Source of the DNA: Thiomicrorhabdus arctica DSM 13458
GTDB taxonomy: Bacteria; Pseudomonadota; Gammaproteobacteria; Thiomicrospirales; Thiomicrospiraceae
Direction of reading: 5' to 3'
Assembly (NCBI RefSeq): GCF_000381085.1
Contig: NZ_KB905899.1
Coordinates: forward strand, 1,364,001 to 1,428,000
DNA: 64,000 bases
Within the stretch, counting starts at the first letter, position 1. Each line of letters opens with the position of its first letter. Below, piece after piece: positions 5,321 through 47,172 of this stretch. Below the pieces are notes generated by a model, which was not told the origin of the DNA, ran no database searches, and was given only the letters and a program-made list of their open reading frames with translations. The position numbers and the translations under genes were made by a program.

Positions 5321-5381
5321 CCTCAATTTTTCACATAAACCTACTATTAATCAATTCAAACTGAACTTAAAGAAATCTAAA

Positions 5382-6752: not shown

Positions 6753-6788
6753 ATCCTATATTACAATAGTCTTGAGACAGTGATTATC

Positions 6789-6816
6789 GGCTAATCATCC
6801 CCAGATTAGCCCTTTT
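6789..6816 (+). terminator. Terminator after manB
   Basis: Perfect 8-bp stem GGCTAATC/GATTAGCC with a 7-base loop followed by CTTTTCC, 37 bases after the manB stop. Confidence 0.75.
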
Positions 6817-6983
6817 CCAAACGAATAATGACGCCTTTAAAGCCGTTGAAGGTTTGTTAATTCCATACAATATCCTATAATCTCCCCTACGTCATTGACC
6901 TTCAAAGCTATTTACTCAAAGCGCCTCATCAAATAGATACGTCACCAGAGCCGATAAAAATATTTCATTAAAAGAGTTCCACT

Positions 6984-7835: not shown

Positions 7836-7871
7836 ATATCCACCTACATTTATCCTTGTGCGTGGTGAACC

Positions 7872-8972: not shown

Positions 8973-8974
8973 CG

Positions 8975-10150: not shown

Positions 10151-10268
10151 ACGTTAAAATAGTGAACATCATTTTTAATAAAGCCATTATACAAACAAAA
10201 AACGTAGAATGACTGTTTTAAACAAACCTGTTCACCAATCTGAATCCTCGATTTTAAGGGCTTAAACT

Positions 10269-11753
10269 ATGAAACATATTCAATTTGCATTCAATACCTC
10301 GTTCACCCACCTTGATACTTTAATTCTCCCTATTAATGATGAAGGCGAGATCATCTCGTTAGAGAACATTCTGCCACAGCAATCGACTTTGAATGCATTA
10401 AGCAAAAGCCTGTCGAAATCAGGCGATTTCAGCGGAAACGTGGGGACAACGCTGCTCCTCATTAAACCAGCGGGTATTGAATTTCAGAGAGTATTGTTAG
10501 TGGGTTTCGGTGCAAAAGACAAGCTGACCACCAAAGGTTACCTCACCTCAATCCAAGCCGCGGCTGATGCATTAGATCATTGTGGTGCAATTCATATTGT
10601 CAATGCCGCTATTTTTGCCAAGCCCGCTGCTGAAAGCATTAAGTGGGCAGTGACCCAAAATGCGCAAATATTTCAACGTAGCTTCTATGATTACAGTCAT
10701 GAAAGCCGTGGCAGCCATTCGTTAAAAGAGCCTAAAGTAGAAAGCATGGTTTTCCCTGCTGATGATTACACGGCCGCAGCACATCAAGGTCAAGCGACAG
10801 CACTAGGTATGGCCTTAACACAAGAATTAGCGAATATGCCGAGTAACTTTTGTACTCCAACCTATTTAGCAGAGACCGCCATTCAATTAGGTCAAGAATT
10901 TGATTTTGATATTAAGATTCTTGATCGCAAAGAGATGATTGAAATGGGCATGGGTTCTTTCATGTCCGTCGCGCAGGGTGGAGATACCCCTCCAAAAATG
11001 ATCTGTCTATCCTATAAGGGAGGAGAATCCTCACAAGCGCCTATCGCTCTGGTCGGTAAAGGCGTGACCTTTGATACAGGTGGAATCTCATTGAAGCCTG
11101 GGGCGGGAATGGATGAAATGAAATACGACATGGGTGGTGCAGCAACGGTCCTAGGCGTTTTTAAAGCGTTAGGTGAGATTAAACCAAATATCAATGTCGT
11201 CGGTGTCATTCCTGCCACTGAAAACATGCCTTCTGGTAATGCCATCAAGCCAGGTGATGTCGTCACGTCCCTTTCAGGTCAAACCATTGAAGTTCTCAAT
11301 ACCGATGCTGAAGGCCGTCTGATTCTGTGTGATGCTTTAACTTACACGCAACAAACGTATAAGCCTTCTAAAATCATTGACATGGCGACCTTAACGGGTG
11401 CTTGTATTATCGCTTTAGGTCATCATGTTTCTGCTATTATGGGCAACAACCAACCCCTTGTGGATGCTTTAAGAACAGCAGGTGAAACAACCTATGACCG
11501 TTTTTGGCAGCTACCACTTGGCGAAGAGTGGGATGAGCAATTGAAATCTAATTTTGCCGATATGGCTAATATCGGGGGGCGTGCGGGTGGATCCATTACT
11601 GCCGCACAGTTTTTAGCGCGTTTTGTGAAAGAAGTTGATTGGGCACATTTAGACATTGCGGGAACCGCTTGGATCAGTGGCGACAAAAAAGGTGCAACGG
11701 GTCGCCCTGTTCCAGCCCTAGTTGAATACTTGTTGACTGAAGCAAAGGCATAA
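10269..11753 (+). CDS. pepA: Leucyl aminopeptidase (cytosol aminopeptidase, M17)
   Basis: Hexameric two-metal aminopeptidase of family M17; PepA in some gammaproteobacteria is also a DNA-binding regulator and Xer accessory factor. The metal/catalytic signature Asn-Thr-Asp-Ala-Glu-Gly-Arg-Leu is present near residue 345, and the Lys in Gly-Lys-Gly-Val-Thr-Phe-Asp-Thr-Gly-Gly-Ile (about 260-270) provides the second half of the site. The length of 494 residues is usual. An AAGGG lies upstream of the ATG. It is followed after 6 bases by holC, the normal gammaproteobacterial pair. Confidence 0.95.
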   Translation: MKHIQFAFNTSFTHLDTLILPINDEGEIISLENILPQQSTLNALSKSLSKSGDFSGNVGTTLLLIKPAGIEFQRVLLVGFGAKDKLTTKGYLTSIQAAADALDHCGAIHIVNAAIFAKPAAESIKWAVTQNAQIFQRSFYDYSHESRGSHSLKEPKVESMVFPADDYTAAAHQGQATALGMALTQELANMPSNFCTPTYLAETAIQLGQEFDFDIKILDRKEMIEMGMGSFMSVAQGGDTPPKMICLSYKGGESSQAPIALVGKGVTFDTGGISLKPGAGMDEMKYDMGGAATVLGVFKALGEIKPNINVVGVIPATENMPSGNAIKPGDVVTSLSGQTIEVLNTDAEGRLILCDALTYTQQTYKPSKIIDMATLTGACIIALGHHVSAIMGNNQPLVDALRTAGETTYDRFWQLPLGEEWDEQLKSNFADMANIGGRAGGSITAAQFLARFVKEVDWAHLDIAGTAWISGDKKGATGRPVPALVEYLLTEAKA

Positions 11754-11759
11754 AAACGC

Positions 11760-12227
11760 ATGACAGTACCACAAACTGAACAGTCCACCTCATTACCAAG
11801 TGCATCAAAGGATGTGCTTTTCTATGTATTGAACAGTACTGATCCACAGTCTCGGGAAGTTTTTTTGAACAAATTGCTTAAAAAGATTTGGGCCGAAAAA
11901 CGCCGCTGTGATGTGCGTTTTGAATCAGAACAAGATGCCTTACGCTATGATTTAATGCTGTGGAATGCACAACCGCAAAGCTTTATCCCGCATGGTGTGA
12001 CTAAACAAATTCCTGCGCCTATTCAATTGTATGGCGAACGGATTCTAAAACCATCGCGCGATGTGCTGATTAATCTGCACCCTGAATTCCCAAGCGTGTT
12101 CGAGCAGTATCAAAGAACTATAGAAATCCTCGATCAATCCGACTATTTAATCCAAATGGGGCGCGAACGCTGGAAGGCCTACAAAGCGAAAGGTATTGAA
12201 GCAACGGTGCATAAAATCGGTTTTTAA
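11760..12227 (+). CDS. holC: DNA polymerase III subunit chi
   Basis: Chi subunit of the clamp-loader complex, which links the replicase to single-strand-binding protein. The core begins at about residue 18 (Asp-Val-Leu-Phe-Tyr-Val-Leu) and carries the chi pattern: a helix with Lys-Lys-Ile-Trp-Ala-Glu-Lys-Arg-Arg, then Leu-Trp-x-x-x-Pro-Gln-Ser-Phe-Ile-Pro-His-Gly. An N-terminal extension of about 17 residues is not found in E. coli chi. No internal ATG would remove it cleanly, and the chosen ATG sits 6 bases after pepA. The C-terminal half (Tyr-Leu-Ile-Gln-Met-Gly-Arg-Glu-Arg-Trp) is somewhat divergent. Confidence 0.88.
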   Translation: MTVPQTEQSTSLPSASKDVLFYVLNSTDPQSREVFLNKLLKKIWAEKRRCDVRFESEQDALRYDLMLWNAQPQSFIPHGVTKQIPAPIQLYGERILKPSRDVLINLHPEFPSVFEQYQRTIEILDQSDYLIQMGRERWKAYKAKGIEATVHKIGF

Positions 12228-33610: not shown

Positions 33611-34783
33611 TTAGCTCAGTAATTCATGAAGTGATGTTATTTTATCTTTGATATCAACTTGTTGATTTCCTACAAACAAACCATATTCATCAATATATTC
33701 AGCATTTGTTAAAGAACCAGCCACTTCATAATCAAAGAACTCTAATACTTCTTTATTTTTCAAGAAGTTCCCCGTGACAATAGGTCGGCATTCAACACCA
33801 TTATCCTGTAATTTAGCAACTAATTCTTTACGTGTGTATGGTGCATTTTCTTTAAGAATCATGGAAAAACCAAACCAGCTACTTTTTTCTGTTTCTTTTT
33901 GTATTTGGATATATGGGTGGTTTTTAAAAAGATTTACGAATAACCTGGCATTATCTTGTCTATTCTGAATAAAACTAGGTAACTTTTTCAACTGTTCAAT
34001 ACCAATAGCGCCACTCATTTCCAAGGGACGTACATTATATCCAGGCAAAACAAACTTGAATGCCTCTTCGAACATATCATCACTTTTGGTTCCTGTTACA
34101 TGATTTACTTTTGGTAGATTACGTGTCCAACCGTGAGCACGAATGGTTAAGAGTATATGGTAAAGCTCTTCATCATCGGTAACAACACAACCGCCTTCCA
34201 TCGTCGCAATATGATGACTAAAGAACGAGCTATATGTTCCCATTAAACCAAACGTGCCAGCCTGTTTGTCTTGGTAAGTGGCGCCCATCGACTCGCAATT
34301 ATCCTCTAAAAGGGTGATTCCTTTACCTTTAATCATCTTATTAATGGCATTAAAATCGTTAGGATTTCCAAGTAAATTAACGAGTAGTATTGCTTTTGTT
34401 TTTTCGGTAATAGCGGCTTCTAATTTTTTCAAATCGATGTTTAAAGTTTCGCGATCTATATCAACGAACTTAACTTTTAGGCCATACTGTTGTAGTGGAA
34501 AATAAGTAGTTGACCACGAAACTGCGGGTACAATAATTTCATCACCACGCTTCAACTTCAACTCTTTATTTTTGGTAAAAAATAAAGACGCTATCATTAA
34601 TAAATTAGCGGTTGAACCTGAGCTCACCATCAATGCGTATTTTGAACCAAAAAATGATGCAAAATCCTGTTCATACTGTGCAACATGCTTACCCATCGTA
34701 AACATATCTGAGTCAATCACGGTCTGAATGGCATTTAGTTCTTTTTCATCCCATGTGCTACTAGCAAGCGAATAACTAGACAT
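33611..34783 (-). CDS. colD: GDP-4-keto-6-deoxy-D-mannose 3-dehydratase (ColD)
   Basis: PLP enzyme that removes the 3-hydroxyl of GDP-4-keto-6-deoxymannose, using glutamate as amino donor, to give the 3,6-dideoxy precursor of colitose. It follows E. coli WbdK/ColD closely along its whole length (Leu-Ala-Ser-Ser-Thr-Trp-Asp near the start, Val-Pro-Ala-Val-Ser-Trp-Ser-Thr-Thr-Tyr, Arg-Ala-His-Gly-Trp-Thr-Arg-Asn-Leu-Pro). The residue that would be the PLP lysine in aminotransferases is histidine (Ser-His-His at 189-191), the defining feature of ColD and of E1-type dehydratases. It is 390 residues and overlaps the colC-like gene by 8 bases. Confidence 0.93.
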   Translation of the reverse strand: MSSYSLASSTWDEKELNAIQTVIDSDMFTMGKHVAQYEQDFASFFGSKYALMVSSGSTANLLMIASLFFTKNKELKLKRGDEIIVPAVSWSTTYFPLQQYGLKVKFVDIDRETLNIDLKKLEAAITEKTKAILLVNLLGNPNDFNAINKMIKGKGITLLEDNCESMGATYQDKQAGTFGLMGTYSSFFSHHIATMEGGCVVTDDEELYHILLTIRAHGWTRNLPKVNHVTGTKSDDMFEEAFKFVLPGYNVRPLEMSGAIGIEQLKKLPSFIQNRQDNARLFVNLFKNHPYIQIQKETEKSSWFGFSMILKENAPYTRKELVAKLQDNGVECRPIVTGNFLKNKEVLEFFDYEVAGSLTNAEYIDEYGLFVGNQQVDIKDKITSLHELLS

Positions 34784-35702
34784 TTTCTTGTTCCTTTAAA
34801 AATTGAAAGGTGGCCTTCAAGCCTTCTTGTAAGGAAGTTTTATACTGCCAACCAAATGCTTTTAATTTAGTATCGTCAATTAACTTTTGCTTCATACCGA
34901 CAGGTTTGGATAAATCGTGCACAAACTCTCCGTCAAAGCCAATGACCTTAGCGATTTCAGTATAGTATTCATTAATCGTATGATCATGCCCCAACCCTAC
35001 ATTGATGTTTTGGGGCATTACTTCAAAGTTTTGGATGGCGAAATAGATGAAATCCGCTAAGTCACCCGCATACATGAACTCTCGTCTTGCTAATCCATCA
35101 CCCCAAATATCAATTTCTTTTTGACCGCGATTCTTTGCATCAGATATCTTTTGAATGACTGCAGGAATCATATGAGAATGTTTTGGATCAAACTTGTCAT
35201 GCCTGCCATAAAGATTGCAAGGTATCACTGTTTTATATAGGAAGGCATTATTTTCCCTATGAATATATTCACATAGACGGGTACTAGCTACTTTTGCAAG
35301 GGCATAACCTTCATTGGTCGGCTCCAACTCACCTTTTAAAATCAACTCTTCTGCTAGTGGGTTTTTTGCATCCCTTGGGTACATGCATGAGCTACTCAGA
35401 TTCATGAATCGTTCAATGTCTGCATTTTTTGAGGCTGTTAAAATATTTAACCCCATTTGCATATTATCGACTAGAAATCTAACAGGCTCTGCAATATTGG
35501 CCTGAATACCACCAACAACCCCCGCCGCATGAATTACCATGTCTGGTTGATTTTGAGACAGATACGCTTCAACCTGTAATGCATCCAGTAAATTTAACTC
35601 TTTACGATTGGGAGTTAATAACTCATAAGAGCTGGCGTCAGGGTGCTCTAGAATGTTTTGCCCAACCATCCCATTTGAGCCCGTAATTAATATCTTCATC
35701 AA
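34776..35702 (-). CDS. colC: GDP-colitose synthase / GDP-fucose synthase-like epimerase-reductase
   Basis: Extended SDR of the Fcl/WbdJ group: Gly-Ser-Asn-Gly-Met-Val-Gly (8-14), Ser-Ser-Ser-Cys-Met-Tyr-Pro, Tyr-Ala-Leu-Ala-Lys, and Pro-Cys-Asn-Leu-Tyr-Gly-Arg-His-Asp. Fcl-type enzymes epimerise C3/C5 and reduce C4 of GDP-4-keto-6-deoxymannose; ColC (WbdJ) does the C5 epimerisation and C4 reduction after ColD. Because the only fcl-like gene sits directly upstream of colD in transcription order, GDP-L-colitose is the expected product. GDP-fucose synthesis is the alternative or an additional activity. Confidence 0.85.
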   Translation of the reverse strand: MMKILITGSNGMVGQNILEHPDASSYELLTPNRKELNLLDALQVEAYLSQNQPDMVIHAAGVVGGIQANIAEPVRFLVDNMQMGLNILTASKNADIERFMNLSSSCMYPRDAKNPLAEELILKGELEPTNEGYALAKVASTRLCEYIHRENNAFLYKTVIPCNLYGRHDKFDPKHSHMIPAVIQKISDAKNRGQKEIDIWGDGLARREFMYAGDLADFIYFAIQNFEVMPQNINVGLGHDHTINEYYTEIAKVIGFDGEFVHDLSKPVGMKQKLIDDTKLKAFGWQYKTSLQEGLKATFQFLKEQENV

Positions 35703-35706
35703 TTAT

Positions 35707-36822
35707 TTACTCCACTGCAACGGGAATGTCATGGCCATGTTCTTTGAGTAATGCATGACGCTGTGCGACTTTTAGATCAGCGGCAACCATTTCAGTACAC
35801 ATTTCTTGTACAGTGATTTCGGGTATCCAGCCTAGTTTTGCTTTAGCTTTACTTGGATCACCTAACAGCGTCTCGACTTCCGCAGGACGGAAGTATCTTG
35901 GATCGATCTGAACAAGAACATCTCCGACTTTTAAAGCAGGTGCTTTATCGCCGTCAATCGCAATCACAATACCTTTTTCATCAATACCATTACCCGTAAA
36001 CTCAAGTGTAATGCCTAACTCTTCTGCAGACCAGCTAATAAACTGGCGAACAGAGTATTGAACACCAGTTGCAATAACGAAATCTTCAGCGACATCTTGT
36101 TGCAACATCATCCACTGCATTCGCACGTAATCTTTAGCATGACCCCAGTCACGTAATGCATCAATATTTCCCATAAACAAACACTTATCTAACCCTTGGG
36201 CCATATTGGCTAAACCACGAGTGATTTTACGAGTTACAAAAGTCTCACCACGACGAGGAGATTCATGATTGAATAAAATGCCATTACAAGCGTACATACC
36301 ATAAGATTCACGGTAATTTACGGTAATCCAATAAGCGTACATTTTAGCGACGGCATAAGGTGAGCGAGGATAGAATGGCGTAGTCTCTTTTTGTGGAGTC
36401 TCTTGCACTTCACCATATAATTCAGAAGTAGAGGCCTGATAGAATTTAGTTTTCTTCTCTAACCCTAACAGACGAATCGCTTCTAATAAACGCAAGGTTC
36501 CCATACCGTCTACATCTGCGGTATATTCTGGGGATTCAAACGATACTGCAACGTGAGACTGAGCTCCTAAGTTATAGACTTCATCAGGCTGCACTTCTTG
36601 TAAAATTCGCGTTAAATTTGAAGAGTCGGTTAAGTCTCCATAATGCAAAATTAGGTTTTTATTCTCAACATGAGGATCTTGAAAAATATGATCAATACGC
36701 TGCGTATTGAAAGAAGATGCGCGGCGTTTAATGCCGTGGACTTCATATCCTTTTTCCAATAAAAATTCTGCTAAATAAGAGCCATCCTGGCCCGTTATTC
36801 CAGTTATTAAAGCTTTTTTCAT
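35707..36822 (-). CDS. gmd: GDP-mannose 4,6-dehydratase
   Basis: First step from GDP-mannose towards colitose or fucose: oxidation at C4 and loss of the 6-hydroxyl. The NADP loop [10 protein letters not shown] (8-17), the RRXSS-like [10 protein letters not shown], catalytic Ser-Thr-Ser-Glu-Leu-Tyr-Gly, Tyr-Ala-Val-Ala-Lys and Phe-Asn-His-Glu-Ser-Pro-Arg-Arg-Gly are all there. The length of 371 is normal. It begins with an ATGA overlap with the Nudix gene. Confidence 0.96.
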
Positions 36823-37280
36823 ACAACGCCCTTACTGTTAAAATATTTTTTTGTATATGTGTGAACTAAGGGATCACTTTCCAAATCCCTTAAACTAAAA
36901 TAACGATATTCATTGTGCTCTGAGCTTGGCAAAGTCTCGAGAGAGCTATCACCACACTCTAACTCAAATGCTAACACGACATAATGAGTTGTTATGGACT
37001 CAGAAACAAAACTATTGTCATAAAAATGTTCAAAAATGCCTATAAATTTAAAGTTACTCAAACTCTTTTCAAGATTAACTTCTTTTAAAGAAATTCTTTT
37101 AATGGCGTGGGAGAGGCATTCATTTTTTAAAACTCGCCCGCCAGGTACAAACCAAAAGTCCTTAGCAGGCTGATTATTTCGCTTACCTAACAACACACCA
37201 CTTGAGCTTTTGATAATTAAATCAATGGCAACCAGAGGTGCTGTTTCTATAAGGCTTTCAAACTTCGTTAGACTTAACAA
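36819..37280 (-). CDS. gmm: GDP-mannose mannosyl hydrolase (Nudix, Gmm/WcaH-like)
   Basis: A Nudix-fold protein of 153 residues. The Gmm subgroup lacks one canonical Nudix-box glutamate and has Phe-Val-Pro-Gly-Gly-Arg-Val-x-Lys-x-Glu; here [12 protein letters not shown] matches. Gmm hydrolyses GDP-mannose (and GDP-glucose) to GDP and the free sugar and is common beside gmd in colanic acid and colitose loci, probably to tune the GDP-sugar pool. It has an ATGA overlap with gmd and lies 4 bases after the upstream oxidoreductase. Confidence 0.88.
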
Positions 37281-37284
37281 TGGC

Positions 37285-38211
37285 TTATAACTTATCGATT
37301 AGCATCAACTGCTCAACAATACCTTCTAATGAAGTTTTTTGCGGCGCATAACCAATCATTTCAGCAATTTTATTGAGCGAAAAATATTTCAATTTTGAAC
37401 CCGTTGCATTCACTACATCTGTAAAGTCAGAAATTTCAACCGGTAAGCCAAATCTACTTTCTAACTCAGATAATAATACCAACTTTTCAACAGGAGACTT
37501 CGTATAGCAATCAAGTGCTATATTTGTTGGTTTAGCTTTGATAATCGCTTGAACCAAATCAAAAAAACCATCAGGTGTAATAAAATCCCTAACAATATTC
37601 TCAGGCGAAGTTTTAAAAACCTCTTTCATCTGAATTGCACGTACAATATCGGTAATTAAAAATCGCGTATTCATATCTTGCGTATGGCTGAAATAGTTAA
37701 ATACCCGAACATCAATAATTGAATAATCACTTAGTGCTCTATGTTTTGCTTCTGCATATAGCTTTGCAATGGCGTACCAATCAGTCTCTTTCAAGTTATT
37801 TATAGTTACAGTTGCTTGGGTATTTTCGTTAACAGGGGTTTCAAAACTTCCTCCATAAACAGCACCACTACTAATGAAAATATATTTGCAACCTGGATGA
37901 ACTTTCAAGTAATTTAGTGCTAAATTGTCATAATGCTCGGTAATAGCGAATATGTCTGCACCCATTTTCTTAGCGGCGGCTGGGTCACCAACTCCCACAA
38001 AGTTTATAATTACATCATAGGCATCATGTTCAGAAAAAGATTCATAAGTTAAGTTTAAATATGAAATTTTAATATTTAAATCTAAAAACTGTTTATCTAC
38101 TCTTGCAACATCACGAGAAAATAAAACACATTCATAATCTGTGTACTCTGAAAATGAAATGATCAAATCTTTTGCAATTTGACTTGTTGCACCCAATATT
38201 GCAATCTTCAT
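37285..38211 (-). CDS. NAD(P)-dependent sugar reductase/epimerase (SDR), possible YerF role
   Basis: Extended SDR of 308 residues: N-terminal Gly-Ala-Thr-Ser-Gln-Ile-Ala (8-14), Ser-Ser-Gly-Ala-Val-Tyr-Gly (about 117-123), and Tyr-Ala-Ile-Ala-Lys (about 152-156, catalytic Tyr and Lys). It directly follows the TPP-dependent enzyme, sharing one base with it. In the yersiniose pathway of Yersinia the TPP flavoenzyme YerE is followed by the reductase YerF, which reduces the carbonyl of the added acetyl branch. This gene is the best positional candidate for that step, but family membership alone does not prove it. Confidence 0.7.
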   Translation of the reverse strand: MKIAILGATSQIAKDLIISFSEYTDYECVLFSRDVARVDKQFLDLNIKISYLNLTYESFSEHDAYDVIINFVGVGDPAAAKKMGADIFAITEHYDNLALNYLKVHPGCKYIFISSGAVYGGSFETPVNENTQATVTINNLKETDWYAIAKLYAEAKHRALSDYSIIDVRVFNYFSHTQDMNTRFLITDIVRAIQMKEVFKTSPENIVRDFITPDGFFDLVQAIIKAKPTNIALDCYTKSPVEKLVLLSELESRFGLPVEISDFTDVVNATGSKLKYFSLNKIAEMIGYAPQKTSLEGIVEQLMLIDKL

Positions 38212-40022
38212 TAATTTCCCTTTACTGGAGGAATAATCATTTCATCTAAAAATTCTTCTCTTGACAAAAATGGGTACATATCTTCAAATGGTTTAGAAAC
38301 CATCGTTCCATCATCTTTTTTCATAGCTGAAACTGCAGGAATGATTTCCTGAAATGGGGGACAGATAATTTCACAAATTACAGGTCCGACAAAATCCATC
38401 GTTTCTTTTAAAGTACCTTCTAAAGCTACGAATGTTTTGGCTATAAAATATTGAAGACCATATGCCTCTGCTATTTTATGCAAATCAGGAAAAGAAATAC
38501 CTGTTGAAGCTTCTGTTCCCATCAATCTCCCTTCAAAAAATTTCTTTTGTGTAGTCCTTATCGATAAATAGCCATCATTATTCCAGACAAATATTTTTAT
38601 TGGCAACTGGTAATGAACAATAGTTTGCAACTCCTGTATATTCATCTGAAATGAACCATCTCCTGTTATAGCGACGACCTCACCCTTCTTGGCTATTGAA
38701 GCCCCAATGGCAGCAGGAATAGTAAACCCCATATCTGCTTGAGCACCAGAGGTGATATATCTTTGACTTCCTGAAATTCTTAGTGCCTGAGCGGTTACAT
38801 AATATGCAGAACCTGCATCAGCTACAATAGTTGAATCGGGCAATAAATACCTTCCCAAATACTTTATGAAGGTATACATATTAATTGCACCATCTCTATC
38901 TTCATAAGCGTTAAGAGCCACAGGCCATTTATTGCGCCAAATATTACAACGCTCAATCCATTTTTTTCTATCTGAAAAATTCATTTTTTGTGAATTCAAT
39001 ACGTTAAGAAAGCTTTTAATATCCGCATTGATAAAAACGTCTATTTTTACCGTATTTTTTTTGTGTTCAATGGCATCAATATCAACAACAATTATCTTTG
39101 CATTCCTTGCAAACAAGTCATACTCAAACCCACTAACGGCAACAGATAAACGTGAACCTAAAACAAGGACCAAATCTGAATTTTGAAGGGCAAAATTACC
39201 TGCTCGATCACCCTTTATACCCACGCGCCCAACACATAAATCATCCTCACTTGCTATCAAATCAATACCCAAATACGTCGTAACTACAGGTAATCGATAC
39301 TTGTTTATAAATTCAATAAATTCAGAAACTGCATTGCCTAACCTAATCCCATTTCCGGCCAATACAATTGGTCTTTGAGCGTTATCTAAATCTTTAATAA
39401 TAGTAATTAAATCTTTATCAAGTAAATTATCTGTATAGGCCAATCCTTCCTCTAGAGGGGAAAAATGTATTAAATCACACTCTTCAATCATTGCACCTTG
39501 AACATCCTGAGGAATATCAACCCATACAGGACCAGGCCTTCCTGAGATTGCCAAAAATGCAGCCTTTTCTAGATGGTAAGCTATCTGACTAGGCTCGTTG
39601 ACCATGACAGAATATTTTGATATTGAGCTTACAATAGGAATTATATTTGCTTCCTGGACTCCCACTTGCCGTAAACTAAGAGGCGAATTGTGTACTGTTT
39701 CTTTTCTTTTGACTTGTCCAGAAATAAAAAACACTGGTGTATTATCTTGCCACGCATCTAACAATCCAGTTACAGCATTTGTTGCTCCGCACCCACTTGT
39801 TGTCATTGCGACTGAATATGAATTGTTGTATTTTGCATATGCTACAGCAGCCATCGCAGACGCTTGTTCATGATGATTGCAGATAGGATTTAACTTTTCA
39901 TGTTTTGCAACACCATCATTTAAAAACATTGCGCCGCCACCAGTCACTAGAAATACATCTTTAACACCCAGGGTTGAAGACAAAAAGTTAGCAACATAAT
40001 CAGCTACTCTTATTTTACTCAT
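38211..40022 (-). CDS. TPP-dependent acetolactate-synthase-like enzyme (YerE-like candidate)
   Basis: Three-domain thiamine-diphosphate enzyme of about 603 residues: N-terminal PYR domain with the activating glutamate in Asn-His-His-Glu-Gln-Ala-Ser-Ala-Met-Ala (Glu52), a central domain (about 200-340), and the C-terminal PP domain with Gly-Asp-Gly-Ser (454-457) and the closing Asn-Asn (481-482). Being inside a CDP-3,6-dideoxyhexose operon, and not beside an ilvN-type regulatory subunit, argues for an activated-aldehyde transfer to a keto-sugar as in Yersinia YerE rather than branched-chain amino-acid synthesis. The start is ambiguous: consecutive ATGs at 40025 and 40022 overlap the upstream gene. 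I take the second; the frame is open to 40046. Confidence 0.8.
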   Translation of the reverse strand: MSKIRVADYVANFLSSTLGVKDVFLVTGGGAMFLNDGVAKHEKLNPICNHHEQASAMAAVAYAKYNNSYSVAMTTSGCGATNAVTGLLDAWQDNTPVFFISGQVKRKETVHNSPLSLRQVGVQEANIIPIVSSISKYSVMVNEPSQIAYHLEKAAFLAISGRPGPVWVDIPQDVQGAMIEECDLIHFSPLEEGLAYTDNLLDKDLITIIKDLDNAQRPIVLAGNGIRLGNAVSEFIEFINKYRLPVVTTYLGIDLIASEDDLCVGRVGIKGDRAGNFALQNSDLVLVLGSRLSVAVSGFEYDLFARNAKIIVVDIDAIEHKKNTVKIDVFINADIKSFLNVLNSQKMNFSDRKKWIERCNIWRNKWPVALNAYEDRDGAINMYTFIKYLGRYLLPDSTIVADAGSAYYVTAQALRISGSQRYITSGAQADMGFTIPAAIGASIAKKGEVVAITGDGSFQMNIQELQTIVHYQLPIKIFVWNNDGYLSIRTTQKKFFEGRLMGTEASTGISFPDLHKIAEAYGLQYFIAKTFVALEGTLKETMDFVGPVICEIICPPFQEIIPAVSAMKKDDGTMVSKPFEDMYPFLSREEFLDEMIIPPVKGN

Positions 40023-41064
40023 CATTAGACCCTTGTTTATTAACATTCCATTTGATTGTGTGAAGCAACGCCTCTTTAAAGGTGAAATTCTCTTTCACAC
40101 CAAGTTGTGTATGTATATAATCCAAACTTGGAATAAAATTAGACTCTAGCGTGTTATTATTTTTTACAATGATATCTACAGGTATTGATATAATTGAGTT
40201 TATTTCATTTGCAACTTCTAACAAAGAAACCTCTTCAGACGAGCCTAAGTTATAAACTTCACCATCTTTACCATTAGCCAAAATTGCTAGCAACCAGGCA
40301 GCCATATCAGTCGCATACAAGTAACTCCTTTTAGGCTTTCCATTCCCTAAAATCCTGATTGGCTGCCCATTTAATGCTTCTTGCATAAAAGAATTGATTG
40401 CCCATGGCTTATTTAACTCTTGATAAGGCCCTATAAAAGAAAAAGGCCTTACAATTGTTACAGGTAGTTTGTATAAACTCCTATATGCTAAACATAGCGC
40501 TTCAGAGTAACGTTTCGCCTCTGGATAAATAGAATTTATACCCTTTTTTAATAAGTAACCTTGGCTATTCTCACTAATTGCAGCACCATTTCCTGGCGCG
40601 TCACCATAAACTTGTCCAGAGCTTAAATATACAATCCCTTTAATATCAGAAAGCCTTGATGCAGCATCCATAATTGCCTTAGTGCCTATAGCGATAACAT
40701 CCATAGTATTTACAGGATCTGACATATGGACTCGATTATCTGGGTTCGCTGCCGAATGTATAATATAATTAATGTCTTGCGGTAAATCATGCAAACTACG
40801 TATATCTGATTTTATAAAAGATATGTCCGACCTTCCATATAAATCAGGATCAAGCTCCTCTAGTTTTTTAGGATTTCTAGTAAGAATAATAATACTACAG
40901 TCAAAATTTAATTCATCATTTAGCCAAACTAAAGATCTTGCAACCCAAGCGCCGACAAATCCAGTACCTCCTGTAATAAGTATCACCTTCCCCTTTAGCG
41001 AACCAAAGGTTGAAGATAGACCCTGAATAGATCTTTGGATATCATCTTGAATCATTTTTTTCAT
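40015..41064 (-). CDS. NAD-dependent epimerase/dehydratase family protein
   Basis: Extended SDR of 349 residues. NAD loop Gly-Gly-Thr-Gly-Phe-Val-Gly (about 32-38), His-Ser-Ala-Ala, Ser-Ser-Gly-Gln-Val-Tyr-Gly-Asp (catalytic Ser) and Tyr-Pro-Glu-Ala-Lys-Arg-Tyr-Ser-Glu (Tyr/Lys), then Arg-Pro-Phe-Ser-Phe-Ile-Gly-Pro and a substrate-domain Arg-Ser-Tyr-Leu-Tyr-Ala-Thr-Asp-Met. It looks like the dTDP/UDP-sugar epimerase-dehydratase branch. It overlaps the aldolase gene by ATGA and the TPP gene by 8 to 11 bases, so it belongs to the same translational unit. It may epimerise or reduce the CDP-ketosugar before or after branching. Confidence 0.75.
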   Translation of the reverse strand: MKKMIQDDIQRSIQGLSSTFGSLKGKVILITGGTGFVGAWVARSLVWLNDELNFDCSIIILTRNPKKLEELDPDLYGRSDISFIKSDIRSLHDLPQDINYIIHSAANPDNRVHMSDPVNTMDVIAIGTKAIMDAASRLSDIKGIVYLSSGQVYGDAPGNGAAISENSQGYLLKKGINSIYPEAKRYSEALCLAYRSLYKLPVTIVRPFSFIGPYQELNKPWAINSFMQEALNGQPIRILGNGKPKRSYLYATDMAAWLLAILANGKDGEVYNLGSSEEVSLLEVANEINSIISIPVDIIVKNNNTLESNFIPSLDYIHTQLGVKENFTFKEALLHTIKWNVNKQGSNDE

Positions 41065-42074
41065 CTAAAGTCCTTAATGGCCAAAGCTTGAGCTACTTCA
41101 ACTATCAAATCTTCTTGACCAGCTATAGCTCCCAGCCTGCCCAGTTCAAAATAAATATCCCGAGGATCTACATTGTATATTTCTGCCACTCTTGCTACAG
41201 GCTTTGAGAATACAGAAACTACACCACTCATTCCACTGACAATACTCGAGCTAGTAATTTTAGGTAATACACTAAACAGTTTCTCTGCAATATCAGCAGC
41301 ATCCAACAACTTATATAAGTCAACCCCAGTTTTATAACCTTCCATAGAAAACACTGCGGCTAATAACTCTATACTTGCATTACCCGCACCTCCACCAAAG
41401 CCTGAAATTGAGCCGTCAATTATAGTCGCCCCTGCCTTTACTGCAGATAAAGAATTGGCAATTGCCATTCCTAAGTTATTATGCCCATGAAACCCTACAG
41501 GAACCTTTAATGAATCAACCAAAAGACCTATACGTTTCTCTACATCTGCTGGCAAAAAAGTCCCTGCTGAATCTAAAATTGTAATTCCTTCAGCACCATA
41601 TGACTCCATTTTTAAAGCCTCTTGAACCAGCATCTCGGGAGAAATCATATGAGACATCATAAGACCTCCAAATACACGACGCCCAGTTCCTCTTACATAA
41701 GATATATGCTGCTCTGAAGTATCTGCTTCAGTACACTGTGTAGCGATTCTTATTACATCGACTCCACAATCAATTGCCTTAGAAATATCCCTTGATATAG
41801 TTGCATATCCAGGCACAACATGAATCCCTAACAATGAGTGCTTCAAATTTTCTCTTGCCGTAGTCAACATCTGTTCATCAGATAACAAGCTTTTTCCAAT
41901 CTGGAGAGAAGAGGCACCAAGCCCAATGCCATGTCCCACTTCTACAACACCTACCCCTGCACTATCAGCTAATTTTGCATAAGTAGCAATTTGATCTACA
42001 TTCAATTGATGACGAATGGCGTGCGATCCATCCCTTAATGTAACGTCATACAATGAAACTTCTAGATTATCCAT
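41061..42074 (-). CDS. 4-hydroxy-2-oxovalerate aldolase homologue
   Basis: DmpG/MhpE-type class II pyruvate aldolase of the DRE-TIM family. The signature Asp-Val-Thr-Leu-Arg-Asp-Gly-Ser-His (10-18), Glu-Val-Gly-His-Gly-Ile-Gly, and the metal-binding Gly-His-Asn-Asn-Leu-Gly (about 195-200) are seen, as is the C-terminal communication domain. In aromatic degradation it splits 4-hydroxy-2-oxopentanoate to pyruvate and acetaldehyde, which channels to the partner dehydrogenase encoded 3 bases upstream. No other meta-cleavage gene is present; the operon is for sugars. It may instead run in reverse, or supply a precursor for the TPP enzyme. Confidence 0.88.
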   Translation of the reverse strand: MDNLEVSLYDVTLRDGSHAIRHQLNVDQIATYAKLADSAGVGVVEVGHGIGLGASSLQIGKSLLSDEQMLTTARENLKHSLLGIHVVPGYATISRDISKAIDCGVDVIRIATQCTEADTSEQHISYVRGTGRRVFGGLMMSHMISPEMLVQEALKMESYGAEGITILDSAGTFLPADVEKRIGLLVDSLKVPVGFHGHNNLGMAIANSLSAVKAGATIIDGSISGFGGGAGNASIELLAAVFSMEGYKTGVDLYKLLDAADIAEKLFSVLPKITSSSIVSGMSGVVSVFSKPVARVAEIYNVDPRDIYFELGRLGAIAGQEDLIVEVAQALAIKDFR

Positions 42075-42077
42075 AGT

Positions 42078-42956
42078 TTAAACCTTAGCTAGCTTTTTAT
42101 GAGCAAAATGCTCTGCAACTTCAATTGCAGCGCAATTTATAATATCTAAATTTCCTGCAAATTTAGGTAAATAATCTCCTAATCCCTGGACCCGAACAGT
42201 TGTCAATAATTTCCCATTATCAAATGTCGGCTTTACTATTAACTTATACCCTGGCACATATCGCTGTATCTTGCTCACCATTTTTTCTATTTCTACAAGA
42301 ATATTTTCAATATCTGGATTTTTAAGTTCGACCAATACTGTTGTTTGCATATCTATCGCAGGATTAGCAGGATTCAAATTAATCATGGCCTTAGCATGAC
42401 TAACCCCACAAAACAATTTCAATCCCTTCTCCGTTGCTTCAATGTACTCATCAATATTAATTCTGGTTCCTGGGCCTGCGCTTCTAGAGGAAATAGTTGA
42501 CACTGTTTCAATATAGTCTATCTCAGAATGAACTTTACTTATTGCATATGCAATGGGAATTGACGCCTGACCACCACAAGTAATCATGTTGACATTTCTT
42601 GAACCAATAGCCTCTTCCAAGTTCACTTCTGGAACACATAAAACTCCAATTTTCGCTGGCGTCATATCAATCACAAACTTTCCAAGCTGCTCCAGAATCG
42701 AAGCATGCGCTAAATGACTTTTTGCAGATGTTGCATCAAAAACAATATCACAAAGATCTGGCTCCCTTACGATGATATCAATCCCTTCATCGCTTAATCG
42801 AACACCCATTGCGGCGGCCTTACTCATCCCAGAAGATGCTAAGTTTCGGCCAGAAAAAATAGTACATTCTAAAAACTTTGAACGCTGAACTTTCATAAGC
42901 AAATCAGTTCCAATATTCCCAGTCCCTATGATACCAACACGTATTTTACTGCTCAT
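42078..42956 (-). CDS. Acetaldehyde dehydrogenase (acylating), DmpF/MhpF type
   Basis: Interconverts acetaldehyde and acetyl-CoA with NAD. It has the Gly-Thr-Gly-Asn-Ile-Gly dinucleotide loop (11-16) and catalytic Cys127 in Ile-Thr-Cys-Gly-Gly-Gln-Ala. The C-terminal half (Ser-Ser-Arg-Ser-Ala-Gly-Pro-Gly-Thr-Arg, then Asn-Pro-Ala) is typical of the channeling partner of 4-hydroxy-2-oxovalerate aldolase. At 292 residues it is slightly short (about 300-316 usual). It is preceded by a 65-base gap after rfbH, one of the few gaps in this operon, and is followed 3 bases later by its aldolase. Confidence 0.88.
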   Translation of the reverse strand: MSSKIRVGIIGTGNIGTDLLMKVQRSKFLECTIFSGRNLASSGMSKAAAMGVRLSDEGIDIIVREPDLCDIVFDATSAKSHLAHASILEQLGKFVIDMTPAKIGVLCVPEVNLEEAIGSRNVNMITCGGQASIPIAYAISKVHSEIDYIETVSTISSRSAGPGTRINIDEYIEATEKGLKLFCGVSHAKAMINLNPANPAIDMQTTVLVELKNPDIENILVEIEKMVSKIQRYVPGYKLIVKPTFDNGKLLTTVRVQGLGDYLPKFAGNLDIINCAAIEVAEHFAHKKLAKV

Positions 42957-43021
42957 TTACCCACCGACTTTTCAAGCTTTTGAAAAAAGTATTTTTTAAC
43001 TCTAGACATATTTAAATATCT

Positions 43022-44338
43022 TTAAAATCCAACACCAAAAAATTCTTCTAGCTTTTCGGCAACATAATCCAGGTGTTCTTTACCCAGGCCTGGGTAAATG
43101 CCCAACCACATCGTTTGGTTCATGGTGATGTCTGTATTGGTTAATTCACCAACAACACGGTATTCAACATCTTCAAAATATGGCTGACGTGTTAAATTCC
43201 CTGCAAAAAGAAGCCTAGTGCCAACTTTATTCTGGTCAAGATATTTAGTTAAATCCACACGACTAACACCTGAAGTTTCTTTGATCGTAATTGGAAAACC
43301 AAACCATGAAGGCGTTGAATTTTCTGTTGGTTCAGTTAATTCAATAAAGTCCGTTAGGCTCGATAATCGTTTTGATAAGTAATCAAAATTAGCATTACGC
43401 TTTTCAATAAACTCAGGCAGACGTTTTAACTGCGCGAGCCCACATGCGGCTTGCATATCGGTAATTTTGAGATTATAGCCTAAATGAGAGTAAGTATATT
43501 TATGATCATAACCTTGAGGCAAGGATCCTAATTTCATATTAAAACGTGTGCCGCAAGTATTGTCACAACCAGGTTTACAATAGCAATCACGCCCCCAATC
43601 ACGAAATGATTCTGCAATTACTGCAAGCTGTGGATCATTCGTAAATACGGCACCACCTTCACCCATTGTCATATGATGAGCAGGATAGAAACTGAGAGTG
43701 GCTATATCACCCCAAGTTCCAACCATTTTCCCATCATATTTTGCTCCTAACGCGTCGCAACAATCCTCTATTAGCCATAAGTGATGCCTATCGCAAATTT
43801 CTTTTACTTTTGCCACATTAAATGGGTTGCCCAGTGTGTGGGCTAGCATAATCGCTTTAGTTTTTGGTGTAATGGCCGCCTCAATAAGATCGGTATCAAC
43901 ATTATGTGTTTTTAGATCAACATCAACAAAAACTGGAATCGCGCCAAATTGTACAACAGGGTTTACCGTTGTTGGAAAACCTGCTGCAACACCAATAACT
44001 TCATCACCTTTTTTAATCGCTTTTGGACCAAGCTTGGGTGATGTCAAAGCGCTGAATGCAACCAAATTCGCAGAGGAACCAGAGTTGACGGTAATAAGGT
44101 GCTTAACACCAATGAATTCCGCTAACTCTTTCTCAAACATATCATTGAACCGGCCCGTTGTTAACCAACCATCTAATGAGGCTTCAACCATATACTGGAG
44201 TTCAGTTTCTCCAATCACCTTTCCCGAAGGTGGCACCACTGAAACTCCCGGCTCAAAAGGCTTTTCGACATATTGCAATTCGGCATATTTTTTAACAAGT
44301 TCAGAAATTTCTTTTCTAATGGTTTCAGTGGTTTGCAT
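43022..44338 (-). CDS. rfbH: CDP-4-keto-6-deoxy-D-glucose 3-dehydratase (E1, RfbH/DdhC)
   Basis: PMP/[2Fe-2S] dehydratase that, with the E3 reductase, removes the 3-hydroxyl of CDP-4-keto-6-deoxyglucose. The usual PLP lysine is replaced by histidine (Ala-His-His at 220-222). The iron-sulfur cysteines are seen in Asp-Cys-Tyr-Cys-Lys-Pro-Gly-Cys-Asp-Asn-Thr-Cys (252, 254, 258, 262). It is 438 residues, normal for RfbH. Near its end Tyr-Pro-Gly-Leu-Gly is encoded by a 16-bp palindrome. It overlaps the CDP-glucose dehydratase gene by 14 bases. Confidence 0.95.
   Translation of the reverse strand: MQTTETIRKEISELVKKYAELQYVEKPFEPGVSVVPPSGKVIGETELQYMVEASLDGWLTTGRFNDMFEKELAEFIGVKHLITVNSGSSANLVAFSALTSPKLGPKAIKKGDEVIGVAAGFPTTVNPVVQFGAIPVFVDVDLKTHNVDTDLIEAAITPKTKAIMLAHTLGNPFNVAKVKEICDRHHLWLIEDCCDALGAKYDGKMVGTWGDIATLSFYPAHHMTMGEGGAVFTNDPQLAVIAESFRDWGRDCYCKPGCDNTCGTRFNMKLGSLPQGYDHKYTYSHLGYNLKITDMQAACGLAQLKRLPEFIEKRNANFDYLSKRLSSLTDFIELTEPTENSTPSWFGFPITIKETSGVSRVDLTKYLDQNKVGTRLLFAGNLTRQPYFEDVEYRVVGELTNTDITMNQTMWLGIYPGLGKEHLDYVAEKLEEFFGVGF
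43081..43096. repeat. 16-bp palindrome TACCCAGGCCTGGGTA in rfbH
   Basis: A perfect 16-bp palindrome with the same CCAGGCCTGG core as the recurring 12-mer, near the 3' end of rfbH. Confidence 0.9.
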
Positions 44339-45395
44339 TATTAATATCTCTCATATATTCGTTAATTTCTTGCAGGCAAACGGATTGCATATTCTCTTTG
44401 TTTAGCCAAGCCTGATGCCATTGAACAATTTTTTCAAGCGTCTTATCCAAAGGCCAAGTAGGCTGCCAATTGAGTCTTGACTTAGCTTTCGATATATCCA
44501 GTTTTAAATAACCCGCTTCATGTGGATGAGCATCCTTGTCAAGTTCCCAGCTCGTACCAGGCCATTTTTTAACCATGCAATCTAAAATCCAATCAACCTG
44601 CTTTGCATCTTCATCACGTGGCCCAAAATTCCAACCTTCGGCATATTGGTCTGGATGTTGGTATAAATTCTGCGCTAAAACGAGGTAACCTGACAATGGC
44701 TCTAACACATGCTGCCAAGGCCTTGTTGACATAGGATTGCGAATGACAACCGCCTGATGATGTTCAAAAGCTTTTAATATATCTGGAATTAAACGGTCAT
44801 CAGCCCAATCCCCACCGCCGATCACGTTACCAGCACGAGCTGAAGCTAACCCTATACCTTTTTCTTGCATAAACGAACGTCGGTAAGCTGAAGTCACTAA
44901 TTCGGCACAACCTTTTGAACTGCTATAAGGGTCATACCCGCCCATTGACTCATCTTCTCGATAACCCCATACCCACTCTTTATTTTCATAGCATTTATCG
45001 GTCGTGACACTCACAATTGATTTTAAGTTTGGACAATTCCTAGCGGCTTCAAGCACTTTAACCGTACCCATGACATTGGTTTCATAGGTTTCTATCGGTT
45101 GCTTATAAGATAACCTTACTAAAGGTTGTGCAGCCATATGAATAAGAATATCTGGATTAAATGCAATCATACTAGCGCTTAATTGATTTAAATCGCCAAT
45201 ATTACCGATTTCTGAGTCTATTTTTTGTGCAACATTTGCTTCGTCAAAAAGGCTTGGAAAGGTTGGAGGTATTAACGCGTAGCCTTTTACGACCGCTCCT
45301 AATGAACCTAACCACAAAGAGAGCCAACTACCTTTAAAGCCAGTGTGACCTGTTAAAAATACCCTTTTACCTTGCCAGAAAACTTGATCAATCAT
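44325..45395 (-). CDS. rfbG: CDP-glucose 4,6-dehydratase
   Basis: Second step of the CDP-dideoxysugar path. Gly-His-Thr-Gly-Phe-Lys-Gly-Ser-Trp (14-22) is the NAD loop peculiar to this enzyme; Val-Thr-Thr-Asp-Lys-Cys-Tyr-Glu-Asn and Tyr-Ser-Ser-Ser-Lys provide the catalytic residues. The frame extends upstream to 45449, but the family N terminus begins at the ATG at 45395, four bases after the rfbF stop, giving 356 residues. It is coupled to rfbH by a 14-base overlap. Confidence 0.95.
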   Translation of the reverse strand: MIDQVFWQGKRVFLTGHTGFKGSWLSLWLGSLGAVVKGYALIPPTFPSLFDEANVAQKIDSEIGNIGDLNQLSASMIAFNPDILIHMAAQPLVRLSYKQPIETYETNVMGTVKVLEAARNCPNLKSIVSVTTDKCYENKEWVWGYREDESMGGYDPYSSSKGCAELVTSAYRRSFMQEKGIGLASARAGNVIGGGDWADDRLIPDILKAFEHHQAVVIRNPMSTRPWQHVLEPLSGYLVLAQNLYQHPDQYAEGWNFGPRDEDAKQVDWILDCMVKKWPGTSWELDKDAHPHEAGYLKLDISKAKSRLNWQPTWPLDKTLEKIVQWHQAWLNKENMQSVCLQEINEYMRDINNANH

Positions 45396-45399
45396 TGCA

Positions 45400-46173
45400 T
45401 TACTTCCATGTATTCCATGGAGCCTTACCAGACAGCCATAATTCTTCAAGATAAACCTTATCTCTCAATGTATCCATTGGTTGCCAAAACCCCTCATGCT
45501 GAAATGCCATCAATTGGCCGTCTTCAGCTAAACTCATTAAAGGCTTCTGCTCCCAAGTACAGTTATCACCGGTAATGCGCTCCAATACTTCAGGGGAAAG
45601 TACAAAAAACCCTCCATTAATCATCGCGCCATCACCCTTTGGCTTTTCTTTAAATTGCATAATTTGATTATTTTGAATATCTAAGGCGCCAAAACGTCCG
45701 GGAGGATAAGTTGCTGTTAGGGTCGCTTGCTTACCATGAGATTTATGGAACGCGACTAATTCAGTGATATTAACATCCGACACTCCATCACCATAGGTAA
45801 AACAGAATGCCTCTTCATCTTTCACATGATCAGCGACTCTTGCCAAGCGACCACCTGTCATTGAATCATCACCTGTATCCACCAAAGTAACTGTCCAAGG
45901 CTCTGCACGCTCTTCATGAACTTCCATACGATTCTCTTTCATACAAAAAGTCACGTCGGATTGGTGCAAAAAATAATTGGCAAAGTATTCTTTAATCACA
46001 TAACCTTTATATCCGCAACAAATCACGAAATCATTGATGCCATGAGAAGAATACATTTTCATAATATGCCATAGTATCGGCTTGCCACCAACTTCAACCA
46101 TCGGCTTAGGACGCAGACTGGTCTCTTCACTTAAACGAGTTCCAAGACCACCTGCTAGAATCACTGCTTTCAT
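45400..46173 (-). CDS. rfbF: Glucose-1-phosphate cytidylyltransferase
   Basis: Makes CDP-glucose from CTP and glucose-1-phosphate, the entry to CDP-3,6-dideoxyhexoses. The motif [11 protein letters not shown] (8-18) and Arg-Pro-Lys-Pro-Met-Val are typical; Gly-Asp-Gly-Val-Ser-Asp holds the metal-binding aspartate. The length of 257 residues is exact for RfbF/DdhA. It lies 15 bases after the reductase gene and 4 before rfbG. Confidence 0.96.
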
Positions 46174-46188
46174 TATCTACTTCCTTTT

Positions 46189-47169
46189 TTAAAAACTTTG
46201 AACAAATGCATCTGAATAAAACTGTTTTTCTGGTAAACCTATGTCAGAAAATACCTGTTTTGAAGATTGAATCATGGCATTAGAACCACAAGCATACACA
46301 TCACTGACCACTAATTTAGCGCCTAACTTCTCTAACGCAATCATCTGAACATAACCTGTCTCCCCCCCCCAGTCTTTATCTGATTTGGAAATGACTTTTT
46401 CTACACTTACTTCTATATTCTTGAACATCGGTTGCCAAACAAAGTCTTCTTTATAACGATTGCCCCAGAATAAATGGATAGCATGTTGCTGTGTAAACTC
46501 AGAGTCTTGATCTATTTTAGTTAATATCGACATAATCGGAGCGATGCCTGTTCCGGTCGCAAGAAAAACAAGGGGCTTGACTGCATCTCGAATAAAAAAG
46601 GTGCCCTTTGGACCTTCAATTCTTAATAAATCATTCACTTGAGCTTGATCAAACCAATAATCACTCATTTGACCTTGGTCAACTTTCTTAATTAATAATT
46701 TAACCTTTTTGTCCAAAGAGGTACTCGCAATAGAATAACTACGCCTGATATTATTCCACAGTACATCCAAATACTGTCCCTCAAGAAACTTAATACTAGC
46801 AGCAGGAGGGAAACGGAGAACCACCTCAATGATATTTTTAGCAGGAAAATTAATTTCACTAATCCTTACTGGTAAAGTCTTAACATCAATATTTTTTAAT
46901 CGTGTCAAGTCTTCTGCATCTATCACAACATCAGAAACTGGCTCACAACAACATGTCAATATTTTATGATTTTTCTTTTCTTCATCTGTTAGCGCAAACT
47001 GAGACTTTAACTCTAAAACCTTACCCTCAATTAATGTCGTCTTACACACGCCACATAGACCATTTTTGCAACTATATTCAAAGATAAATCCAGCTAACAA
47101 GGCCGAATCCAAAATACTGTTGGCTTCCGTAGACGAAAACTCATTACCTTCAATTGTTTTTATTCTCAT
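46189..47169 (-). CDS. ddhD: CDP-6-deoxy-3,4-glucoseen reductase (E3, AscD/DdhD type)
   Basis: Iron-sulfur flavoprotein that passes electrons from NAD(P)H to the E1 dehydratase. Domain order: a plant-type [2Fe-2S] ferredoxin domain (1-90; Cys34, Cys39, Cys42 and one of Cys73-75), an FAD domain with Arg-Arg-Ser-Tyr-Ser-Ile-Ala (about 138-144), and an NAD domain with Ala-Thr-Gly-Thr-Gly-Ile-Ala-Pro. A GTG at 47172 abuts the glmS stop, but the ATG at 47169 is preferred. A run of nine G in the coding strand (Trp-Gly-Gly near residue 268) makes the gene a candidate for slipped-strand switching. The frame is intact as given. Confidence 0.92.
   Translation of the reverse strand: MRIKTIEGNEFSSTEANSILDSALLAGFIFEYSCKNGLCGVCKTTLIEGKVLELKSQFALTDEEKKNHKILTCCCEPVSDVVIDAEDLTRLKNIDVKTLPVRISEINFPAKNIIEVVLRFPPAASIKFLEGQYLDVLWNNIRRSYSIASTSLDKKVKLLIKKVDQGQMSDYWFDQAQVNDLLRIEGPKGTFFIRDAVKPLVFLATGTGIAPIMSILTKIDQDSEFTQQHAIHLFWGNRYKEDFVWQPMFKNIEVSVEKVISKSDKDWGGETGYVQMIALEKLGAKLVVSDVYACGSNAMIQSSKQVFSDIGLPEKQFYSDAFVQSF
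46362..46370. repeat. Homopolymer C9/G9 tract within ddhD
   Basis: Nine consecutive C on the plus strand (G on the coding strand) inside the NAD domain of the reductase gene. A one-base change would frameshift the last 60 or so codons. Confidence 0.95.
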
Positions 47170-47172
47170 CAC

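Follow-up and report, generated by a model that had tools for sequence, protein, structure and literature searches.

A probable erwiniose-type branched-sugar pathway encoded beside the CDP-dideoxysugar genes of Thiomicrorhabdus arctica DSM 13458

Several described carboligases that depend on thiamine diphosphate (ThDP) build branched sugars and differ from one another in the donor they use. According to portions of a 2025 review (PMC12247030), YerE of the yersiniose A pathway of Yersinia pseudotuberculosis (YerE/YerF) attaches two carbons of pyruvate to CDP-4-keto-3,6-dideoxyglucose and transfers no chain longer than C3 (from pyruvate or 2-oxobutyrate), pyruvate being preferred, whereas ErwE of Pectobacterium atrosepticum refuses pyruvate and uses 4-hydroxy-2-oxo acids on the same sugar, giving erwiniose. 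In excerpts of other reports, erwiniose is described as a ten-carbon branched sugar (PMC8657720), and the YerE-like enzyme JanthE (PDB 8rph) is said to accept 4-hydroxy-2-oxovalerate with benzaldehyde, among other donors (PMC12188165). The present study concerns a 64,000-nucleotide stretch of the Thiomicrorhabdus arctica DSM 13458 genome (contig NZ_KB905899.1, positions 1,364,001 to 1,428,000; hereafter the window), in which a minus-strand run of five genes (37285..43021) directly follows the genes for CDP-4-keto-3,6-dideoxyglucose. Like the yersiniose A system, the window encodes a ThDP enzyme of this class together with the genes for the same acceptor; unlike it, the run also encodes an acylating aldehyde dehydrogenase and an aldolase, a pair that, to our knowledge, has no part in the yersiniose A route.

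We consider it likely that this block encodes an erwiniose-type pathway, yielding for the O-antigen a rare ten-carbon, CDP-activated branched sugar similar to erwiniose, which comes from a plant pathogen, and the route is probably a further example of that known type, not one new in kind. All five genes were located in the order and with the families assigned to them in an initial annotation made from the sequence. The acylating acetaldehyde dehydrogenase of the DmpF type (AcDH; 42078..42956) scores 388.5 bits against TIGR03215 (cut-off 282) and 293 bits against PDB 7z3s, and carries the expected Cys127. It is followed by a 4-hydroxy-2-oxovalerate aldolase of the DmpG type (HOA; 41061..42074; TIGR03217 365 bits, cut-off 286; PDB 8ih7 243 bits), which is composed of HMGL-like and DmpG_comm (communication) domains and displays the motifs RDGSH at 14 and HGH at 196. 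Both proteins thus exceed the equivalog cut-offs, such that enzymes able to make 4-hydroxy-2-oxopentanoate are present in the cluster. Next come an extended short-chain dehydrogenase/reductase (SDR1; 40015..41064; Epimerase PF01370, 141.7 bits), the YerE/ErwE-like ThDP carboligase (38211..40046, start possibly near 40022) and a divergent extended SDR (SDR2; 37285..38211; PF01370, 54.5 bits), for which no match among PDB chains was obtained at E 0.001. The carboligase contains the three TPP domains (N, M and C), and JanthE is its best match in the PDB (420 bits), being by sequence the nearest relative of known structure; the Glu52 and GDGS 454-457 reported earlier, counted from the Met at residue 9, correspond to Glu60 and GDGS 462 of the longest reading frame. 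As had been noted, the genes are tightly packed, with either 3 bases between neighbors or overlaps of 1 to 32 bases (open reading frames as listed).

The genes preceding the block, all on the minus strand, form a complete set for CDP-4-keto-3,6-dideoxyglucose, in line with the earlier assignment: the rfbF/ddhA glucose-1-phosphate cytidylyltransferase (45400..46173; TIGR02623 476.6 bits, cut-off 300), the rfbG/ddhB CDP-glucose 4,6-dehydratase (44325..45449; TIGR02622 509 bits, cut-off 278) and the rfbH/ddhC CDP-4-keto-6-deoxyglucose-3-dehydratase (E1; 43022..44338; PRK15407 753.6 bits, cut-off 423). The likely partner of RfbH, a ddhD/E3-like iron-sulfur flavoprotein reductase (46189..47172), passes no curated cut-off (best hmmscan match BenC, 188 bits, cut-off 430) and is assigned from family and position only; it is 40% identical to the product of the gene directly before rfbF in L043, a related locus described below. 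A gap of 65 bases, included in the span end at 43021, separates rfbH from the block.

In the proposed pathway, RfbF, RfbG, RfbH and the E3-like reductase would supply CDP-4-keto-3,6-dideoxyglucose, and AcDH, operating in the building direction, would convert acetyl-CoA to acetaldehyde and hand it to the aldolase, which would join it to pyruvate to form 4-hydroxy-2-oxopentanoate. The ThDP enzyme would decarboxylate this acid and transfer what remains, a 3-hydroxybutanoyl group of four carbons, to the ketone at C4 of the CDP-sugar, creating a tertiary alcohol. The new ketone would then be reduced by one of the SDRs (or by both, if two steps are involved), to yield an erwiniose-like branched sugar of ten carbons, activated with CDP; SDR1 is a candidate for this reductase, or for one of two. 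The direction of the pair, the donor, the transfer, the reduction and the product with its stereochemistry are predictions from the gene content. Since the six carbons of the dideoxyhexose and the four that remain of 4-hydroxy-2-oxopentanoate after loss of CO2 add up to ten, the four-carbon branch envisaged in the initial annotation amounts to erwiniose chemistry. Erwiniose is systematically a 3,6,8-trideoxy-octose with a 1-hydroxyethyl branch at C4, the same skeleton read along the other chain. The series of reactions from acetyl-CoA to the four-carbon transfer, as originally suggested, is therefore the best-supported reading and fits ErwE and erwiniose; its presumed novelty in kind does not stand.

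Searches with the window ThDP protein produced 33 other loci: five in named genomes (close-relative search), six from 368 other genomes of the class, 18 from 397 others of the phylum and, at a looser limit, four new ones from 294 others in the order of G606, the genome that carries L043. In seven of these loci (L008, L036, L038, L041, L043, L056 and L107), AcDH and HOA are encoded no more than about 2.1 kb from the ThDP gene and on its strand. An SDR1-like gene occurs in all seven and, at E 1e-8, in 20 of the 33 loci, sometimes away from the ThDP gene or on the opposite strand. Genes similar to rfbF and rfbG accompany six of the seven (L041 is cut by a contig end), and rfbH accompanies all of them, as a distant relative (33%) in L036 and L038. 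A closely matching block is that of L041, from another class of the same phylum, which has the same gene order and identities of 71% (ThDP), 82% (HOA), 76% (AcDH) and 65% (SDR1). In L041 a single foreign gene, of the Schlafen/AlbA_2 type (5249-6586), is situated between rfbH and AcDH, the rest of the block matching. L008 contains a second, broken ThDP copy (8894-10344) that is 53-67% identical in pieces to the window protein, the intact copy (4108-5892) being 42% identical. An eighth block, L099, was found through HOA and comprises rfbFGH together with AcDH, HOA, SDR1 and SDR2, the last four at 7086-11059. SDR2 is common to L041 (58% over 99 aa, cut by the contig end), L043 (48%) and L099 (48%).

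The link to erwiniose is provided by L043, which contains ddhD-like, rfbF, rfbG and rfbH genes, an HpcH/HpaI aldolase gene, and the genes for the ThDP enzyme, SDR2, AcDH, HOA and SDR1. G606 encodes an L-asparaginase (L060) whose 327 residues are all identical to those of PDB 1zcf, which we take to be the asparaginase of Erwinia carotovora (now Pectobacterium); another asparaginase of this genome (L061) has no close match among PDB chains. Because G606 thus looks like Pectobacterium, the L043 ThDP gene is probably ErwE. Like this putative erwiniose locus, the window has the CDP-ketosugar genes, the ThDP carboligase, the DmpFG-type pair and both SDRs, and the reported donor type fits; unlike it, the window shows a different gene order, has no counterpart of the additional HpcH/HpaI aldolase, includes a colitose module and encodes a ThDP protein that is only 40% identical.

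In the ThDP tree, the window protein groups with that of L043 (98/92), and three further ThDP enzymes encoded in the same genome as the window protein are separated (99/99) from it and the relatives collected with it. The linkage to DmpFG requires four changes on this tree, and a single clade of DmpFG-linked carboligases was not recovered. When the window, L041, L004-L006, L043, L008 and L107 were constrained as one clade, the arrangement was mildly rejected (p-AU 0.034); in the unconstrained tree L108-L110 fall among them. JanthE belongs to a separate clade, which includes the DmpFG-linked L036, L038 and L056, and differs further from the window protein in having a CDG motif in place of GDG, according to excerpts of two papers (PMC12247030, PMC12188165). 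Shortening of K567 in JanthE reportedly opens a channel to the active site (PMC12188165, in part). An alignment of 31 rows, which excludes L107-L110, shows Ala or Thr at this position (printed-chain index 568, one off the paper's numbering by inference) in the window protein, L041, L043, L004, L005 and L006, and Lys or Arg in the other 25; since the six rows lie in one part of the tree, the small residue may reflect ancestry instead of function. Comparison of seven DmpFG-linked rows with 19 others, from which L004-L007, JanthE and the loci found later were left out, revealed only two distinguishing columns, too few for much weight. The tree by itself does not reveal which donor is used, since L043 is only 40% identical to the window protein, whereas L004-L006, at 51-57%, are closer and show no DmpFG pair in the stretch examined.

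For the aldolase/dehydrogenase pair, a search for the HOA family gave 44 places in 37 of 398 genomes. Of the 32 places scoring 525 bits or more, the 25 that arrived as loci were included in the trees, the other seven being second copies without a locus. These 25 pairs form a branch of their own. The sugar-cluster pairs group together in both trees when the long rows L097 and L098 are omitted (nine of nine for HOA, 97/87; nine of nine for AcDH, 100/99); when L097, L098 and L107 are included, L097 and L098 are placed within the sugar-cluster set, which then needs two (HOA) or three (AcDH) changes instead of one. Neither group includes L095, L096 or the distant L100-L102. The 25 pairs look degradative, since in all four that were examined a gene of the FAA_hydrolase family (presumably that of 2-oxopent-4-enoate hydratase) adjoins the pair, accompanied by BphC in one. 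Like DmpFG and BphIJ of aromatic meta-cleavage, the window pair consists of a DmpF-type and a DmpG-type enzyme, the latter with the communication domain; unlike them, it forms part of a separate lineage, its aldolase shares 39-43% identity with those of the 25 loci compared, and none of the 15 window cluster proteins scanned gave an FAA_hydrolase-type match. It therefore does not qualify as a catabolic DmpFG. The separate branching of the two groups argues, at the level of sequence, for a dedicated building lineage in sugar clusters, as opposed to a pair borrowed from degradation. A class I/II aminotransferase follows AcDH and the aldolase in both L097 (6571-11112; there after an ATP-grasp amino-acid ligase) and L098 (6987-10164); this hints at 4-hydroxynorvaline synthesis, possibly for a natural product, and at a second building use of the pair.

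Other explanations for the block must be weighed against this evidence. The same pathway might start from another acyl-CoA, for example propanoyl-CoA, in which case the donor would be 4-hydroxy-2-oxohexanoate or similar and the branch would have five or more carbons. The sugar-cluster pairs are a diverged lineage, in which chain-length specificity may have shifted, and ErwE is reported to accept 4-hydroxy-2-oxohexanoate (PMC12247030). Both enzymes of the window nevertheless exceed the cut-offs of the acetaldehyde and 4-hydroxy-2-oxovalerate equivalogs. Acetyl-CoA is also, in general, the commoner substrate, and we regard a longer branch as unlikely. Somewhat less likely still is a yersiniose-type reaction, in which the ThDP enzyme would transfer two carbons of pyruvate, the pair serving to recycle or detoxify leaked acetaldehyde, as the initial annotation had allowed. 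The pair is indeed best known in the degrading direction, and the window enzyme is homologous to YerE-like carboligases, YerE itself reportedly preferring pyruvate (PMC12247030). However, a general role in acetaldehyde removal is disfavored, and that alternative weakened, by the absence of the pair from the stretch examined at 26 of the 33 related loci, although several of those stretches are short and some of these genomes carry HOA elsewhere. Moreover, the sugar-cluster pairs form their own lineage, and the pair lies beside the ThDP gene in G606, taken to be Pectobacterium, an organism whose ErwE does not accept pyruvate.

The family names of the single genes might also suggest that enzymes of branched-chain amino-acid synthesis or aromatic catabolism have come to lie in the cluster by accident, a reading that appears highly improbable. 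Fifty-four NCBIfam families matched the ThDP enzyme, and for none of the 25 listed does its score reach the threshold (353 bits against TIGR00118, cut-off 538); it does not belong to the acetohydroxyacid synthases, and a proper IlvB, scoring 864 bits, is encoded elsewhere in the genome (C1:181812). These two results lead us to reject a role in isoleucine and valine synthesis, which had been named among the outcomes that would overturn the proposal, and the lineage of the pair and its neighbors speak against aromatic catabolism, likewise rejected. Only three HMGL-like genes were found in the genome, of which HOA is one; the others lie in longer reading frames (515 and 564 aa). AcDH, HOA and the ThDP gene recur alongside rfb genes in other genomes.

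Several observations nevertheless weigh against the erwiniose-type assignment. The block contains two SDRs, although only one new ketone would need reduction. The L099 block has no ThDP gene, and a YerE-like relative in the same genome is found on another contig (L055). L004-L006, which are nearer to the window ThDP protein than L043, lack the pair in the stretch seen, and the DmpFG-linked L008, L036, L038 and L056 retain Lys or Arg at the K567 position. The acceptor sugar may differ in L036 and L038, given their distant rfbH. Finally, the identification of L043 with ErwE derives from the probable identity of the genome and not from a named YerE or ErwE reference sequence, and the HpcH/HpaI aldolase, whose gene lies directly before the ThDP gene there, could make the donor in place of the pair.

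The last point bears on a more general proposal, to which we give about an even chance: that YerE/ErwE-like carboligases use exchangeable donor modules (DmpFG, a NeuB-type synthase acting from phosphoenolpyruvate, an HpcH/HpaI aldolase or an altronate dehydratase), each cluster supplying its own 4-hydroxy-2-oxo acid for attachment to a 4-ketosugar. The module would predict the length and hydroxylation of the branch, and the sugar-cluster DmpFG would be one such dedicated building lineage. 4-Hydroxy-2-oxo acids are known to be formed or consumed by DmpG, NeuB, altronate dehydratase and many HpcH/HpaI enzymes. A gene of one of these families is located near the ThDP gene in 23 of the 33 loci, a raw count without a matched sugar-cluster control. 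A NeuB-family synthase lies within 1.3 kb and on the same strand in 11 loci, ten of which were confirmed with Pfam and one (L052) by similarity only. These are L035, L039, L040, L045, L049, L051, L052, L053, L054, L057 and L109, and the gene adjoins the YerE-like ThDP gene in all except L035, where it is one gene away; among the ten Pfam-scanned synthases, six bear a cupin domain (L039, L045, L049, L051, L053 and L057) and one a SAF domain (L109). Since NeuB often occurs in surface-sugar clusters for unrelated reasons, its link to the carboligases stays a proposal.

An HpcH/HpaI-family gene occurs within 2 kb, again on the strand of the ThDP gene, in four loci in addition to L043, namely L005, L037 and L046 (weak Pfam matches of 35 and 31 bits in the latter two) and L042 (similarity only). 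L006 contains an altronate-dehydratase relative on the same strand, 2.7 kb from the ThDP gene; in its cluster (2358-11797), rfbFGH come first, then genes resembling altronate dehydratase and mannitol dehydrogenase as well as the YerE-like ThDP gene, and a 2-keto-3-deoxygluconate-type donor is possible. Likewise on the strand of the ThDP gene, an aminotransferase gene is near it in L004, and an HMGL-like gene is 2.6 kb away in L108. No donor-type gene was recognized in eight loci (L007, L044, L047, L048, L050, L055, L058 and L110), the neighbors of which were partly scanned. Genes resembling 3-dehydroquinate synthase, presumably tied to sugars of the bradyrhizose or caryose kind, are found near the YerE-like ThDP gene in L035 (2129-3316), L037 (6652-7806) and L042 (11712-12794), which suggests carbocyclic branched sugars.

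The caryophyllose system of Mycobacterium marinum is compatible with the donor-module proposal. Its YerE-like enzyme, MMAR_2332, reportedly has an ErwE-like donor preference (PMC12247030), and caryophyllose is described in part of another paper as bearing a 1,3,4,5-tetrahydroxyhexyl branch at C4 (PMC5706390). This six-carbon branch differs from that predicted for the window, and it would be expected if a longer 4-hydroxy-2-oxo acid were the donor. In text searches of a limited collection of papers, YerE was not found together with NeuB, and no combination of aldolase, dehydrogenase, O-antigen and lipopolysaccharide was found together with CDP-glucose; the link to DmpFG and the donor-module idea may already be in print.

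The entire cluster is a closely spaced minus-strand run from 47172 to 33611, in which the CDP-sugar genes and the block are succeeded by a Nudix hydrolase, gmd, an fcl-like gene and ColD. These last four genes constitute a complete colitose module (33611..37280; ColD against PDB 2gms, 624 bits; the fcl-like product against GDP-fucose synthase, 247 bits). As this module adjoins the block, and genes 51% and 61% identical to ColD accompany the block in L056 and L099, respectively, two sorts of 3,6-dideoxyhexose-derived sugar are probably present in the polymer. The G+C content of the block is 36.6%, compared to 44% in the nearby glycogen genes of this 2.55-Mb genome. The window ThDP gene had no match at E 1e-100 in any of the 57 relatives searched (31 in the genus; 47 of the 58 genomes, counting the window's own, are at least 90% complete with little contamination), and no relative was found in plasmids at 1e-80. 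The low G+C content and the absence of the ThDP gene from the relatives searched suggest an accessory surface-sugar cluster, perhaps laterally acquired.

Thus, a ten-carbon branched sugar is probable in a gammaproteobacterium whose relatives mostly do not carry the corresponding genes, and an enzyme pair of a type associated with degradation is tied here to the building of a sugar. The block itself is well explained in this manner; the general donor-module reading is the fresher point and could still surprise. If true, it would allow the branched sugar of many unread polysaccharide clusters with YerE-like genes to be predicted from a single neighboring gene, and the enzymes would add to the biocatalysts available for making tertiary alcohols.

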